Below are positions 16,582-34,842 of a stretch of DNA of 64,000 bases, piece after piece (position 1 is the first letter of the stretch; each line of letters starts with the position of its first letter). A program made the translations under genes and the position numbers. The notes beneath the pieces were generated by a model. It did no database searches. It had not been told where the DNA came from and saw only the letters and a program-made list of their open reading frames with translations. The stretch is from Hypomesus transpacificus (Eukaryota > Chordata > Actinopteri > Osmeriformes > Osmeridae): the NCBI RefSeq assembly GCF_021917145.1, contig NC_061068.1, positions 9,241,724 through 9,305,723 on the forward strand, given 5' to 3'.

Positions 16582-19563
16582 ATGATGTCAACCAATCACA
16601 TAGAAAATATGGTTGACTTGGAGATAGAAGAGCAACTAAAAGGAATAAAAAAGAGAGACTTATCACAGACATATTTTTATAAGATGGCATGCAGAGCGTT
16701 CGGCCCAGCCAAAAGACGAAACAGGGTTATTATTGCACAACCAATGCGTAGGTTGAATTCCATTCAGGTGCCTTCGAAGCAGATGACAAGTAGCAAAAAT
16801 CGAAGTGTTCCTGTGGTTGCGCCTGGATTAGGGGACCGAGACCACCACGGGGCATTGCTGACAACTATGCTACTAGGAAAAGATGTTGCTAATCATCGAG
16901 ACTGGGTTGAGCAACGGAGGGTCTTTCGCAAGGAGCTCGATAATATCGGGAACTTGTCAAAGTGGCTTCACGCCAAGCCAACAGTAACCGAGCTTGAAAT
17001 GCTTGTAGTTGAGAGAGAAAAAAACACAGAGAAAACTACCTCACCAAAGGTTTGGAGTTCTTTTGTATACATCCCCAGATAGGCTACTTGCAAGGTGGGA
17101 TTCGTTTGTATTGTCTATATAGCCTGCTGAAAGTTCTGAACACATTTAAGACGAGTTCAAAAAAGTATTTTCTCTCCAGAGCGGAGCAGGTGCCCTCGAG
17201 ACTCATCCAACGCTTTGGAACACTGATTTAAGGGAGTGGAAGGGTAGGCCTAATTCCCAGCAGAGCGAACTGAAAGAAATTAAACGGTATCTCACCAACG
17301 AGCTATGCACGAATGAGACAGCCAAACGTCTAGACAAACTTGGCACCGGGAAGATCATTAGCCGTGAGGACCTGCGATCTGCTTTGGAGAAGGTATTAAT
17401 CTAATTCAAGACTTTAATTGCCTGAACCCAAATTGTGATGTCATGATCTAACAATGAAGTCTATTTGTGACCAGGAGGGAATCCCGATGGCTCGTGGGCG
17501 CCTGGATAAGATGGTGTCCTGTCTGATCGGAAGGGAAGGGGACTCATTGACAGTGAAGAACCTGGCTAAGGATATCAAGGCTTGGAGCCAGGACATTGTG
17601 ACCAGGACAAGCGATGCCAAATGCAGTCTGGCAGAGACAGATGATCTTCCCCTGTACTTGCCAGAGGACACTTGCCTGGAGAGGGGGGTCGCCATGGGAG
17701 AGACAGAGAATGTGAGGATCAGTGAGCAGTATGCCCCTTGTTTTCCAGGTAGGTAGCCTATTCAACACCAGTTCTAATCCTGAATTACAGCTATAAAATG
17801 AACCTTTGTCAGCCCTTCACCCCCCCCCCTCACTTTTGTTCCTCCACTTCTGTCCATGTATCTCAGAGCAACAGCTATGGAACCAGAGATCTCTGCCAGC
17901 TCGGACGGGTCACCACTGTCCCCAGCGACTGTCCAACATCAAAGCTGAGCTGTGTCCAAGTACGCCACCGTGGTCGCAGGAGGAGCAGGCTTGCATCCTG
18001 CAGCACCGGCGCTCCAGGGGGATGGTGAGGGATAAGAGCTACTGTTGAGCTGGGCTTAAAGAATGCAGGCCTTGTTGACTGGTATCGATCTCTTTCTCTA
18101 TGTGTAAATTGCCCTTCATCTTGGGTTTCAACAACACAAGGTGTGTTGTAGTTTCAGACGGTTGGAGACTATATAGGAATGGCCTGTCACTAGACTTAGA
18201 ATGGCGCCGTGGTTCAAATCTGTCCACTGGCATCCTGACCTCTTGTTCCTTGTTTCCAGGAGGGCATGCGTGATGAAGAGGTGCTGGCTATCATGAGGAT
18301 GCTATGCCAGATTGATCCCAAGCAGGACGCCCACTCCCAGCCGTCCTCTCTGGGAGGGAGCACGGGCCTGGCTGTGGACCGCTTCAGGAGGCAGTGTTTA
18401 GGGGAGTACCTGGATACACTGGATCAGTGTCGCAAAAAGGGAGTTTCTGTCAGTCAGTCCTCATTGGAGAAAGGTGAGCCAGACAATACAGACATTGCAC
18501 ACACATGCAGTACACAGACAAGCATGAGACATCCAAACGTGGAACAAATACTACTAATGCAACTGATCTAAAAAGATATATATCATTGGCAATTTGCAAC
18601 ACATTTATCTCAGCTGCTTGAGTACAGAGCTTATGACCATCGCCTTTGAGAAGGATCAAAAGTATTTCAATCCAAACATTGTGTACTCTCCAGTGCTCCT
18701 GCACCCGGGGGATTGTAACATGAGGGGTCCAGAGCGTCCTGTACTGAGGCAGGCAGGGTCCACCCCGCTCCCAGGCTGTGGGGGCCGTCTGAGGGGCTGG
18801 CTCAACTGGGACCATGGAGCCACCCCCCAGGACGAGAAGGAAGAGCAAGATAGCCAAGAGGAAGCAGCCACACACAAAGTCCCTAAACTGATGTGAGTTG
18901 TGGATGGTTGTTGTATAATAACACTAACAACGGGAGAATAACACAGTTATTAGCAACAATGCATGGCACAGACTGTATTTTATGTGTATATCACATTGTC
19001 ACATAACACCTCCCCTTTCCCTTCCCAGGCCTGTGTACCCCTCCAGAAGATCAGTCCACCGCAAGCCCAAGATGATGACGCTGTCTACTGGTCTTGCTGA
19101 GGTTGGGCATAAGACTGAGTGCTGGATGACAAGGGAGGAGTATATTCGTATGTCTAGGTAGGCATGACACATCCTTAAAGAGTAACAGTGTGGGTACATT
19201 TTCAATATTCAGGAACTTTGTGCATCGATAGGGTTGAGATGATCACTTGATTTTCTTTTCTTTTGCGAATGTATTCAAACCACAAGTTAACATAGTACTC
19301 TGGACTCTAATACAATGTATGTGTGTTGAATTCGAATCAGAAACAAGGAGCCCTCCTACAGACGGGCCAACCCTAATGCTTTCTGGCCTGGCCAGGATGA
19401 CCATGTCAGACTCTATCTGCCCCAGGTGGGCATTTCCCCTCAGGAAGTTCTCTTCCAGCACATCGTCCGCTCTCCAGCTCCCAGCCGTGGGAACTGGCCC
19501 ATTGACAGCCAAGGATACTCCACCTCAGGAGACATTGATGGACATAAGGCCTACACTCTGTAG
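16582..19563 (+). CDS. efcab12: EF-hand domain-containing protein 12 (complete copy)
   Basis: Likely cilium- or sperm-linked EF-hand protein of unknown biochemical role (family knowledge is thin). Exons: 16582-17049, 17180-17392, 17475-17748, 17867-18024, 18260-18473, 18694-18892, 19029-19157, 19341-19563; 1878 bases, 625 residues. Family-like features as I recall them: RRNRVIIAQPM, then DWVEQRRVFRKELDNIGNLSKWL, and a C-terminal block with NAFWPGQDDHVRLYLPQVG and a final SGDIDGHKAYTL. Exon 2 carries one degenerate EF-hand-like loop (DKLGTGKIISRE): position 1 is Asp and position 6 Gly, but position 3 is Leu, so calcium binding is doubtful. Exon 1 ends at a weak donor (gtttgg). Exons 3-8 recur 15 kb downstream as a damaged partial copy. 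Gene name rests on memory of the human protein. Confidence 0.75.
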
Positions 19564-19805
19564 ATCTAGGTCAATCCTCTCGATTGATCCAATATGAATT
19601 TTTCTATTGAGTGCGTATTATACCAAATGATGTTTATTTCGTTTTTGAAAGGTAATCAATGGCACATTGCAGAAGTATTTTTGAAGGGTCATTTTTTATC
19701 TTCACCAGCGTAGTGGGAACTGAGGGTATACTCTAAAAAGACTGTTTTTTTTTTACGATGTGTGAATAAAAAAATGTTTTTAAAAGAAGGGGGTATACTC
19801 TGTAT
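17455..19805 (+). repeat. Segmental duplication, unit A
   Basis: This segment, from just before efcab12 exon 3 to just after its 3'UTR, matches 32345-34842 in the same orientation with only scattered differences, introns included. Homology begins around the shared ctatttgtgacca and ends after gaagggggtatactc. Unit A holds the intact exons. Confidence 0.95.
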
Positions 19806-19860: not shown

Positions 19861-20938
19861 TAATAGTTAGACTTACCATAGCTTACTGTCAACTTTAAAT
19901 TCAAACGAAATGCCATGAAATTCACACTGCCTTCAATTTATCATCAGTGTAGAAATGTGGCCTGTGTTTTATGTTCATCATACAAAACCAAACGCCTATT
20001 AATGGATATAACATGATCTAACAAGACTTGGTAATAATGTAATAAATAAAAGCTTGAGAACTGTGCCAAAAATATATTTTATTGAACATTTGCCTTTGAA
20101 AGGGGCATATTCACAGAACCATAGGCTAGGCTACAAAGACGTTTCCATCAGATGTAAGTGGGGGTGAAACATAGTCACTGAGGACCTTCATTGTCCCACA
20201 AAAGCAGTCTGGCTTGATGACACGATCAGAAAAAGAATAATGGGTGTGTTTAACAAAAGCTTCTGAAGGCAAGACTAATATTATTTAAATATATATCATT
20301 TCCTATTGTGGTTAACAGTTAAAGTATTAATCTTCGTCTTTGCTCCAGATAGACATGTCAACAATCTATGCTAGCGCTTAACATAATAGCCTATATTTGC
20401 CTTCATGTCATGAACGATTTTAAGAAAAATCACATCTGTTTTAAAATAACGGGAATAAACTATATTAACAACATTTCATGTATGTGTGAGTGTGACAACG
20501 ATTTGCTAAACTTGCTACAACAAGGCAGGCAACTCAAGCCATTTCTCCTTGTGCTCATTCAATATAAGTCTATGGCTCATTCATCTCAATGTAAATCGGC
20601 TATAGGCCAATGTGAACTTTTGTGCTCGTGCCCTGTTAGTATCCGCGAGCACATTTGCAGGCAACTTTTATTGATGTAGGCAATTAAATGGGGTGCTAGT
20701 TTACCCATTTCGGATTGGTTTCAAACTTAGCAAAAATCAGGAACAATTATTCAATGAAAAAGCTAGTAGTATGAGCCAGGTTCGAGAATCGAACACAAAT
20801 TATTGGGGGAGATAGTTTTGTAAATGTTGACTGGAGTTAATAGAATAAAAACGACCGGAAGAGTCGGGAACCTAACCGTAAATGCAATACCACCTACATC
20901 CACCGGGGTCGTTGCTTCAAGCCGAGGGGTGGGGGTCT
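19861..20938. other. Non-coding spacer
   Basis: AT-rich sequence with no gene I can support. One open frame of about 100 codons at 20368-20679 shows no family resemblance and no splice or start context. Confidence 0.5.
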
Positions 20939-20990
20939 GGTCACGGGCAGAGCCATAGAAAAAGATTTTTTCTATGGCTCTGGTCACGGG
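20939..20990. mobile_element. Tiny palindromic insert 1 with 9-bp direct repeats
   Basis: A near-perfect palindrome (20948-20982), arms cagagccatagaaaaa and its reverse complement around a 3-base loop, sits between two copies of ggtcacggg (20939-20947 and 20982-20990). The layout is that of a roughly 34-base insert with a 9-base target-site duplication. A second insert with the same arms lies 180 bases away. Length, palindromy and 9-bp duplication would suit a minimal Mutator-like MITE, but no such family is known to me. Confidence 0.7.
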
Positions 20991-21122
20991 TAGCCACATG
21001 GGTAGCCATCGTTCTTTTCCTCTTCTTCTTGAGCTTGAAGTTTCCCGCTTCCCAGGAGTGCTTGACTGAAGGGCTGTGCTCTGATAGGTCAGAAATTGGT
21101 TCGATTGCATTGAGGCTCGATT

Positions 21123-21178
21123 GCTGTAGGCCAGAGCCATAGAAAAAGAAAATCTTTTTCTATGGCTCTGCTGTAGGC
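21123..21178. mobile_element. Tiny palindromic insert 2 with 9-bp direct repeats
   Basis: The insert spans 21132-21169. Its 17-base arms (agagccatagaaaaaga and the exact reverse complement) flank a 3-base loop, and it is bounded by gctgtaggc at 21123-21131 and again at 21170-21178. It shares the arm sequence, the leading C and the 9-bp direct repeat arrangement with insert 1, while the flanking duplicated sequences differ, as expected for two independent insertions. Confidence 0.75.
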
Positions 21179-21204
21179 TACCTGTTCTCGATATCCCGGA
21201 TGTT

Positions 21205-21375
21205 AAAAAACAGAATTTTTTAAGCTCTAACATTTTCGGGTCGAATTTGATGGACTCGAATTTTTTGGGCTCGAATTTTTTCAGCTCGAAAATTTTCGGA
21301 TTGAATTTGATAGGGTCGAGTTTGTTATGGTTGAATTTTTAAGATCACATTTTTTGGGCTCGAATTTGAGCAACC
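21205..21375. repeat. Degenerate tandem repeat around (g)gctcgaatttttt
   Basis: Roughly ten imperfect units of about 15-20 bases, each built on gctcgaa or gtcgaa followed by a T-run and then tttcgg, ttgggc or ttcagc. Spacing is irregular. No coding potential. Confidence 0.7.
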
Positions 21376-32344: not shown

Positions 32345-32371
32345 ATCTAAAAGGCTATTGAAAACTATTTG

Positions 32372-34604
32372 TGACCAAGAGGGAATCCCGATGGCTTGTG
32401 AGCGCCTGGATAAGCTGGTGTCCTATCTGATTGGAAGGGAGGGGGACTCATTGACAGTGAAGAACCTGGCTAACGATATCAAGGCTTGGAGCCAGGACAT
32501 TGGGATCAGGACAAGCGATGCCAACTGCAGTCTGGCAGAGACAGATGATCTTCTCCTGTACTTGCCAGAGGACACTTGCCTGGAGAGGGGGGTCGCCATG
32601 GGAGAGACAGAGAATGTGAGGATCAGTGAGCAGTATGCCCCTTGTCTTCCAGGTAGGTAGCCTATTCAACACCAGTTCTAATCCTGAATTACAGCTATAA
32701 AATTAACATTTGTCACCCCTTCACCCCCCCCCCCCCCTCCTCACTTTTGTTCCTCCACTTCTGTCCATGTATCTCAGAGCAACAGCTATGGAACCAGAGA
32801 TCTCTGCTAGCTTGGACGGGTCACCACTGTCCCCAGCGACTGTCCAACATCAAAGCTGAGGTGTGTCCAAGTAGGCCACCGCGGTCGCAGGAAGAGCAGG
32901 CTTGCATCCTGCAGCACCGGCGCTCCAGGGGGATGGTGAGGGATTAGAGCTACTGTTGAGCTGGGCTTAAAGAACGCTGGCCTTGTTGACTGGTATCAAT
33001 CTCTTTCTCTATGAGTAAATTGCCCTTCATCTTGGGTTTCGACAACAAAAGGTGTGTTGTAGTTTCACGGTTGGAGATTATATTTACATTTAGTCATTTA
33101 GCAGACGCTCTTATCCAGAGCGATTTACAGTAAGTACAGGGACATTCCCCCCAAGGCAAGAAGGGTGAAGTGCCTTGCCCAAGGGCACAACGACATTTGG
33201 CACGGTCGGGAATCGAACCAGCGACCTTCTGATTACTAGCCCGATTCCCTAACCGCTCAGCCACCTGACTCTCCTATATAGGAATGGCCTGTCACTAGAC
33301 TTAGAATGGCGCCGTGGTTCAAATTTGTCCACTGGCATCCTGACCTCTGTTCCTTGTTTCCAGGAGGGCATGCGTGATGAAGAGGTGCTGGCTATCATGA
33401 GGATGCTATGCCAGATTGATCCCAAGCAGGACGCCCACTCCCAGCCGTCCTCTCTGGGAGGGAGCACGGGCCTGGCTGTGGACCGCTTCAGGAGGCAGTG
33501 TTTAGGGGAGTACCTGGATACACTGGATCAGTGTCGCAAAAAGGGAGTTTCTGTCAGTCAGTCCTCATTGGAGAAAGGTGAGCCAGACAATACAGACATG
33601 CAGTACACAGACAAGCATGAGACATCCAAACTTAGAACTAATATTACTAATGCAACTGATCTAAAATATCAGTGGCTATCTGCAACATATTTACCTAAGC
33701 TGCTTGAGTACAGAGCGTATGATCATCGCCTTTGAGAAGGATCAAAAGTATTTCATTATCAAAACACTGTGTGCTCTCCAGTGCTTCTGCACCCGGAGGA
33801 TTGTAACATGAGGGGTCCAGAGCGTCCTGTACTGAGGCAGGCAGGGTCCACCCCGCTCCCAGGCTGTGGGGGCCGTCTGAGGGGCTGGCTCAACTGGGAC
33901 CATGGAGCCACCCCCCAGGACGAGAAGGAAGAGCAAGATAGCCAAGAGGAAGCAGCCACACACAAAGTCCCCAAACTGATGTGAGTTGTGGATGGTTGTT
34001 GTATAATAACACTAACAACGGGAGAATAACAAAGTTATTAACAACAATGCATGGCACAGACTGTATTTTATGTGTATATCACATTGTCACATAACACCTC
34101 CCCTTTCCCTTCCCAGGCCTGTGTACCCCTCCAGAAGATCAGTCCACCGCAAGCCCAAGATGATGACGCTGTCTACTGGTCTTGCTGAGGTTGGGCATGA
34201 CACATCCTTAAAGACTTTTCTGTAACAGTGTGGGTACATTTTTTATATTCAGGAACTTTGTGCATCGATAGAGTTAGAGTTGAGTTGATCACTTGATTTT
34301 CCTTTCTTTTGGGAATTCAAACCATAAGTTAACATAGTATCTGGACTCTAATACAATGTATGTGTGTTGAATTTGAATCAGAAACAAGGAGCCCTCCTAC
34401 AGACGTGCCAACCCTAATGCTCTCTGGCCTGGCCAGGATGACCATGTCAGACTCTACCTGCCCCAGGTGGGCATTTCCCCTCAGGAAGTTCTCTTCCAGC
34501 ACATCGTCCGCTCTCCAGCTCCCAGCCGTGGGAACTGGCCCATTAACAGCCAAGGATACTCCACCTCAGGAGACATCGATGGACATAAGGCCTACATTCT
34601 GTAG
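32372..34604 (+). pseudogene. Partial second copy of efcab12 (exons 3-8)
   Basis: Exon equivalents lie near 32372-32652, 32779-32936, 33364-33577, 33780-33979 and 34117-34200, and the last exon ends at TAG 34602-34604. Exons 1 and 2 are absent. The AG acceptor before exon 3 has changed to AA (ccaagag for ccaggag). Exon 7 has lost its last part and donor, so reading runs on to a TAA within about 12 codons. Exons 3-6 and 8 remain open, and the last exon differs at only a few residues (ALWPG for AFWPG, PINS for PIDS). No promoter or first exon is seen, so a normal EFCAB12 protein cannot be made; a short transcript cannot be excluded. Confidence 0.8.
33079..33279 (-). mobile_element. tRNA-derived SINE in efcab12 copy B
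   Basis: SINE body 33084-33274, minus orientation, between two TATAT copies (33079-33083, 33275-33279). The B box reads ggttcgattccc on the minus strand (33208-33219), and the A box ctgagcggttagggaatc follows upstream of it. The empty site is visible in the other copy near 18165-18180. Same family as the SINE at 22359-22539. The insertion therefore came after the duplication. Confidence 0.92.
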
Positions 34605-34842
34605 ATCTAGGTCAATCCTCTCGATTGATCCAATATTAATTTGTCTATTGAGAGTGTATTAAACAAAGTTATGTTTATTTCGTTTTTGGAGGTAATCACT
34701 GGCATATTGCAGAAGTATTTATGAAGAGTCACTAGATCTTCACCAGCATAGTGGGAACTGAGGATATCCTCTAAAAATACATTTTTTTTTACGATGTGTG
34801 AATAAAAAATGTTTTTCAAAGAAGGGGGTATACTCCGTATTC

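Follow-up and report, generated by a model that had tools for sequence, protein, structure and literature searches.

Paired palindromes in a 64,000-nucleotide stretch of DNA as probable excision footprints of a P-superfamily transposon

Two short palindromes with shared arms, each enclosed by its own direct repeat, raise the question whether they are very small mobile units in their own right or the remains of something larger. In the window, i.e. the whole 64,000-nucleotide stretch of DNA that was analysed, the initial annotation had placed two inserts of 34–38 bp with 3-base loops and 9-bp flanking duplications. Both palindromes are indeed present at these places, with perfect arms and middles of 3 bases. 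Each was found to extend one base further to the right (CAGAGCC...GGCTCTG), so that their lengths become 35 and 39 bp once the terminal G is counted. The duplications were likewise corrected, from 9 to 8 bp: exact 8-bp direct repeats flank both palindromes, and the apparent ninth duplicated base is a G which precedes both left duplications and is the same as the palindrome's own terminal G. The resulting anatomy of the two palindromes, hereafter scar 1 and scar 2, is given in Table 1; in scar 1 the assignment of the middle T to an end or to filler is ambiguous owing to A/T runs.

Table 1. Positions in the window of the two scars, their target-site duplications and the surrounding repeat
Feature	Position	Strand	Remarks
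Left 8-bp target-site duplication GTCACGGG, scar 1	20940-20947		Single and insert-free in two aligned paralogous copies
Scar 1, 35 bp	20948-20982		Transposon end of 18 nt at 20948-20965, single T, opposite end of 16 nt at 20967-20982
Right 8-bp target-site duplication GTCACGGG, scar 1	20983-20990		Exact repeat of the left one
Left 8-bp target-site duplication CTGTAGGC, scar 2	21124-21131		Paralogs 5 bases shorter here; empty site not exactly matched
Scar 2, 39 bp	21132-21170		Transposon end of 18 nt at 21132-21149, filler AAA at 21150-21152, opposite end of 18 nt at 21153-21170
Right 8-bp target-site duplication CTGTAGGC, scar 2	21171-21178		Exact repeat of the left one
Host repeat receiving both insertions	20840-21250	+	Parts recur elsewhere in the assembly

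The window palindromes are not a product of chance, since five Markov simulations of the window contained no hairpins of this kind (perfect arms of at least 12 bases, loop of at most 10), and a scan of the window for exact 8-bp duplications around ends of the form C[AT][AG][AG], with inverted termini at most 5 kb apart, yielded these two alone. Other perfect hairpins in the window are limited to two overlapping AT-rich ones, at about 45.76–45.80 kb.

Several further repeats were seen in the window. Beside scar 1 lies a 12-base tandem duplication (20985-21008) that is absent from both aligned paralogs, and near scar 2 a tandem array (21213-21369) with a 15-base unit, 10.4 copies and 65% matches, which can alternatively be described with a 60-base unit. 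At a greater distance, 17455-19805 and 32359-34840 form a direct duplication about 15 kb apart, with 90.7% identity over 1,645 bases and 94.4% over 727; the second copy adjoins the 3' tail of a UnaL2 LINE at 33088-33141.

We propose that the two palindromes are very probably excision footprints of a P-superfamily transposon, and not mobile micro-units. A long element with the 30-bp inverted repeat CAGAGCCATAGAAAAAGAGAGTTGCGACAC would have inserted with duplication of 8 bp of target, and transposase would later have cut it out in a staggered manner, on one strand at the edge of the element and on the other about 18 nt into the repeat. Each chromosome end would then keep an 18-nt tail of transposon sequence after departure of the element, and these tails would be trimmed slightly, sometimes padded, and joined end to end. 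In the product, the two copies of the duplication would enclose no more than 18 nt from each end of the element, with little or varied filler in the middle, and the whole would be palindromic because the two tails have the same sequence in opposite orientation. This strand geometry, including the 18-nt stagger, is patterned on that of Drosophila P, and both the timing of the breaks and their repair by end joining are presumed to belong to the germline. An origin by repair or fill-in had been offered in the initial annotation as an alternative to integration, and it is this alternative that the evidence below favours.

The initial annotation had also called for a search for further copies in the genome, and such copies exist, most of them with flanking duplications. 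Judging from its genes and a UnaL2-type LINE tail, the genome is probably that of a ray-finned fish. In the assembly searched (437 Mb; 437,198,280 bases in 376 contigs), the 16-base palindrome end has 246 and 234 matches on the two strands, against 0 and 0 for the backwards control, and among the first 100 matches the inverted partners lie either at about 20–50 bases or at 1.5–9 kb. A search pattern of two inverted exact 11-base ends with 0–30 bases between them identified 79 palindromes of 22–52 bp (42 and 37), more eroded or one-sided scars (e.g. L015, L018, L022 and L029) escaping this requirement for 11 exact bases at both ends. With 31–60 bases between the ends, the same search added six palindromes; these span 53–65 bp and are the only ones in the size class of 53–82 bp, the flanks being fetched for one of the six. 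Of the 79, 77 were parsed together with their flanks, and two mutually identical ones (C368 and C369) fall outside the parsed set.

A single 46-bp form accounts for 25 of the 77 parsed palindromes. Since all 25 share the same duplication and, apart from a few base changes, the same 40-base flanks, they represent one scar that has been copied along with its host repeat. Counting this class once, together with the 52 other palindromes, gives 53 events with 106 ends, a count in which the 20 loci L106-L125 are represented by 40-base flanks only, so that shared descent of some scars may escape notice. Among the 52, the 8-bp duplication is exact in 43 and has one mismatch in five. The remaining four have no good duplication (two mismatches in L098, four in L114, four in L035 and six in L120), and accommodating L114 requires that an additional copy of the end be counted as filler. 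The tracing of the inserts to transposition events with target duplications, as in the initial annotation, stands. Scars and long elements also share a target preference, with G at position 1 of the duplication (31/43 and 12/17, respectively) and C at position 8 (34/43 and 12/17).

The strongest rival to excision is a mobile unit of 35–50 bp, built from two inverted ends, which a transposase acting in trans would cut and paste, much as the initial annotation had supposed when it invoked independent integration of a 34–38 bp unit. The same palindrome does occur within independent 8-bp duplications: outside the 46-bp class, seven palindrome sequences are each found twice, at different duplications, and both window scars have a counterpart in this set (L114 and L090). 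The presence of the 46-bp form at 25 places could also be read in this way, were it not that its constant duplication and flanks show the host repeat to have carried all these copies. A transposed unit should moreover keep its middle, whereas here the middle varies, 45 of the 52 sequences outside the 46-bp class being distinct, and what is fixed is the depth in the 30-bp repeat at which the retained ends break off. An internal sequence common to the copies, as in MITEs, is not seen outside the hitch-hiking class. The twins have fillers of 0–5 nt, and simple junctions recur among Drosophila excisions too, single junctions having been recovered in 14, 5 and 3 isolates (PMC2895639, Table 1). As a single Drosophila junction can recur in up to 14 isolates, seven identical pairs do not demand transposition of the palindrome. 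We therefore regard a transposing micro-unit as very unlikely, and independent integration of such a unit is not needed.

Empty sites were found as well, in line with what the initial annotation had asked for; the existence of homologous sites without a scar does not refute its observation, which is re-read here as the outcome of excision. The host repeat of the window scars has at least 50 matches in the assembly, of which two correspond to the scars read on the opposite strand and one to the query. Two aligned copies of this repeat lack both scars, and at site 1 a single target sequence reads through; in the assembly, five empty copies of site 1 were found, three of them exact. For site 2 a search of the assembly for an exact empty copy gave no matches, and the paralogs fall short of the expected empty site by 5 bases. 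A reciprocal case is provided by L039 and L101, two copies of one repeat whose scars differ in position; the site scarred in either copy is intact in the other (47/48 and 48/48 bases). The host repeat of the amplified 46-bp scar is present in 97 scar-free copies versus 25 filled ones, so that sites of this kind are known both empty and filled. An unexcised element at the site of the amplified scar was not found, the search giving 25 matches, each with three mismatches and all on the 25 scars. Finally, L082 and L117 have one flank in common and the same target position with different fillers, a pattern that fits either a single insertion duplicated before two separate excisions or two hits on the same site.

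Two further observations concern the genomic distribution of scars. The 46-bp scar at G000:C1:7085258-7085303 and at 24 other places is a passenger, spread by a different repeat. At L092 (G000:C19:1931650-1932488) two scars lie about 330 bases apart, in a stretch that partly resembles the window region; here, as in the window, the same neighbourhood received two hits.

Longer elements with the same ends, another target of the search suggested initially, were found. Twenty long end pairs were fetched and share the 30-bp terminal inverted repeat, which with up to three mismatches has 165 and 165 matches in the assembly, against 0 and 0 for its backwards control. Exact 8-bp duplications flank 17 of the 20 long elements, while L046, L050 and L057 deviate, L057 by one base. 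Fifteen elements of 1.5–1.9 kb are 94.3–99.5% alike across 105 pairs (median 98.6%). They match the 6.5-kb element L048 mainly at its two ends, and look like internally deleted forms of it.

The length of transposon sequence retained in the scars is sharply limited. Among the 106 ends, the match to the 30-bp repeat covers 11–15 bases in 23, 16 in 26, 17 in 14, 18 in 41 and 19 in two, and none is longer; both ends are exactly 18 nt in 14 of the 53 events. The same limit is seen in an unselected set, the first 30 matches to the 16-base end, of which 23 traverse the whole 30-bp repeat with 0–1 mismatch and seven end at 16 or 18, with none in between. A 17-nt stagger, as in Drosophila, is not what the scars display: of 57 ends that reach base 17, 43 match base 18 too (p 4.9e-7 in a binomial test with base 18 taken as random filler). 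This disfavours a 17-nt tail, with which base 18 would match by chance only, and points to a cut 18 nt inside the repeat, if the geometry of Drosophila P applies. Between the ends, filler is absent in nine events, 1–3 nt long in 14 and longer in 30, with a maximum of 23 nt and varied sequences. The palindromes thus have the composition of an excision footprint, namely a duplication, a stagger-limited part of each end, filler and the duplication. Templated filler is a mark of polymerase-theta joining. For the 20 fillers of at least 6 nt, the summed longest match was 109 versus 94.3 in shuffles, which is not significant (Fisher p 0.30); two of the 20 (L086 and L094) reach p <= 0.002 individually.

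These retained lengths also bear on a second rival, in which the palindromes are internal-deletion derivatives, left when gap repair within a resident element was interrupted, and not products of the joining of bare transposase-cut ends. This rival has in its favour the 1.5–1.9 kb elements, with their resemblance to an internally deleted 6.5-kb element. Of the six longer palindromes, as read from their letters, one of 56 bp keeps 36 bases at one end, as partial repair synthesis before joining would give, and another keeps 19 at both, the remaining ends being at most 18. Break points made by gap repair should, however, spread through and past the 30-bp repeat, whereas 0 of the 106 ends exceed 19 nt and just six palindromes occupy the next size class, so that we consider such an origin extremely unlikely.

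The nature of the parent element is indicated by L048, in which a putative transposase gene is represented by three stop-to-stop pieces. Pfam matches were obtained to the TNP-like RNase H N domain (PF21787, 97 bits), the GTP-binding insertion (PF21788, 26.1 bits; cut-off 24.8) and the RNase H C domain (PF21789, 28 bits; cut-off 24). The largest open piece matches the Drosophila P transposase structure 6p5a over 320 of 349 residues (E 1.4e-15), and recurs at three more places at 98–99% over at least 346 of its 349 residues, some of these frames carrying a stop. A THAP domain (PF05485) was matched on a 53-aa piece with 18.6 bits (E 0.0033), below the Pfam cut-off of 23.9, and the C-terminal transposase piece gave no match to solved structures. 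The long elements thus combine an 8-bp duplication, inverted repeats of about 30 bp and a split RNase H fold with a GTP-binding insertion, characters of the P superfamily; terminal inverted repeats of Drosophila P are 31 bp. Further marks of the superfamily are a THAP DNA-binding domain at the N-terminus and GTP-dependent staggered cleavage, for which the scars suggest a stagger of 18 nt. It is probably the P-type transposase of these elements that did the cutting. More distant P-type transposase matches (32% and 31%) were seen at G000:C46:361712-362494 and C23:14649646-14650128, in open frames of 351 and 506 aa, and perhaps represent other families or domesticated genes.

The Mutator-like transposase postulated in the initial annotation was rejected, as the duplication is 8 bp and not 9, and the transposase domains are P-type. 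An 8-bp duplication with CAGAG ends would also suit a hAT element, and excision scars of hAT elements are expected to derive from flanking DNA, not from transposon ends; a hAT footprint or element, which has duplication length and terminal bases in its favour and nothing more, can practically be dismissed, since scars made of transposon ends are not what hAT excision would leave, and the 11 open pieces of L046-L048 that were scanned contain no hAT domain in Pfam, the transposase pieces matching P-type models.

Against the excision-footprint reading itself we count the four poor duplications, the seven identical pairs, the longer palindromes with 36 and 19/19 nt, scar 2 without an exact empty copy, the lack of an unexcised insertion at the amplified site, the non-significant templating of filler, the THAP match under the Pfam cut-off, and the C-terminal piece without a structure match.

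Palindromes of this type are largely explained by a known process, and what is new is their scale, in a genome that is probably that of a vertebrate, together with a cut that apparently lies 18 nt deep. In the part of the literature covered by our search, natural excision footprints of P elements were not found reported for any vertebrate genome, nor was a published cut position for vertebrate P-type (THAP9-like) transposases. On balance we favour the wider view that a vertebrate P-superfamily transposase cuts 18 nt into its repeat, exceeding the depth of the Drosophila P cut by one base, and that germline breaks have been end-joined often enough to leave several dozen independent scars in the assembly, next to about 165 resident end pairs, forming a natural archive of cutting and repair from which one scar was spread to 25 places by a different repeat. 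Excision footprints reveal both the cut position of a transposase and the way in which the cell mends the break. The 53 natural junctions collected here point to an 18-nt stagger and would give a spectrum of germline end joining without experiment. They also call for caution in annotation, as a short perfect palindrome flanked by target duplications can be a scar instead of a MITE. Other genomes with P-type elements could be searched in the same way.

Among known systems, zebrafish Pdre2/zfTHAP9 is likewise a vertebrate P-type transposon with an 8-bp duplication, excised by a P-type transposase (PMC10983969, cited from part of the text). Its repeats are 13 bp and start with CATACCTG, in contrast to the 30-bp repeats starting with CAGAGCC described here. 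Cell assays with Pdre2 were reported to give small or larger deletions, and the portion of PMC10983969 consulted holds no mention of a genomic scar set.

The closest comparison is with Drosophila P, the transposase structure of which (6p5a/6pe2) is matched in sequence by the largest piece of L048. According to the portions consulted of Chan et al. 2010 (PMC2895639), 17-nt 3' tails remain at the chromosome break after cleavage by Drosophila P transposase, and joining gives products in which the two duplications enclose at most 17 nt from either end with an insertion between them (Table 1 of that paper); when the insertion class of these junctions was parsed, as distinct from the microhomology and blunt classes, its 36 ends had a maximum of 17. 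The Drosophila junctions are laboratory excisions from flies without Rad51, whereas those described here are natural sequences in an assembly. Joins at long microhomologies with loss of most of the tail are, in the same source, common in Drosophila, and would be invisible here to a pattern requiring 11 nt at both ends. Both systems have in common the 8-bp duplication, a palindromic remnant of the two ends, a sharp limit to the retained length, short filler and recurrent simple junctions. They differ in the position of that limit, which is 17 nt in Drosophila, in agreement with the 17-nt stagger given for P in the consulted part of a review (PMC7776569), and 18 nt here, where the stagger would be 18 nt, with the cut one base further into the repeat.
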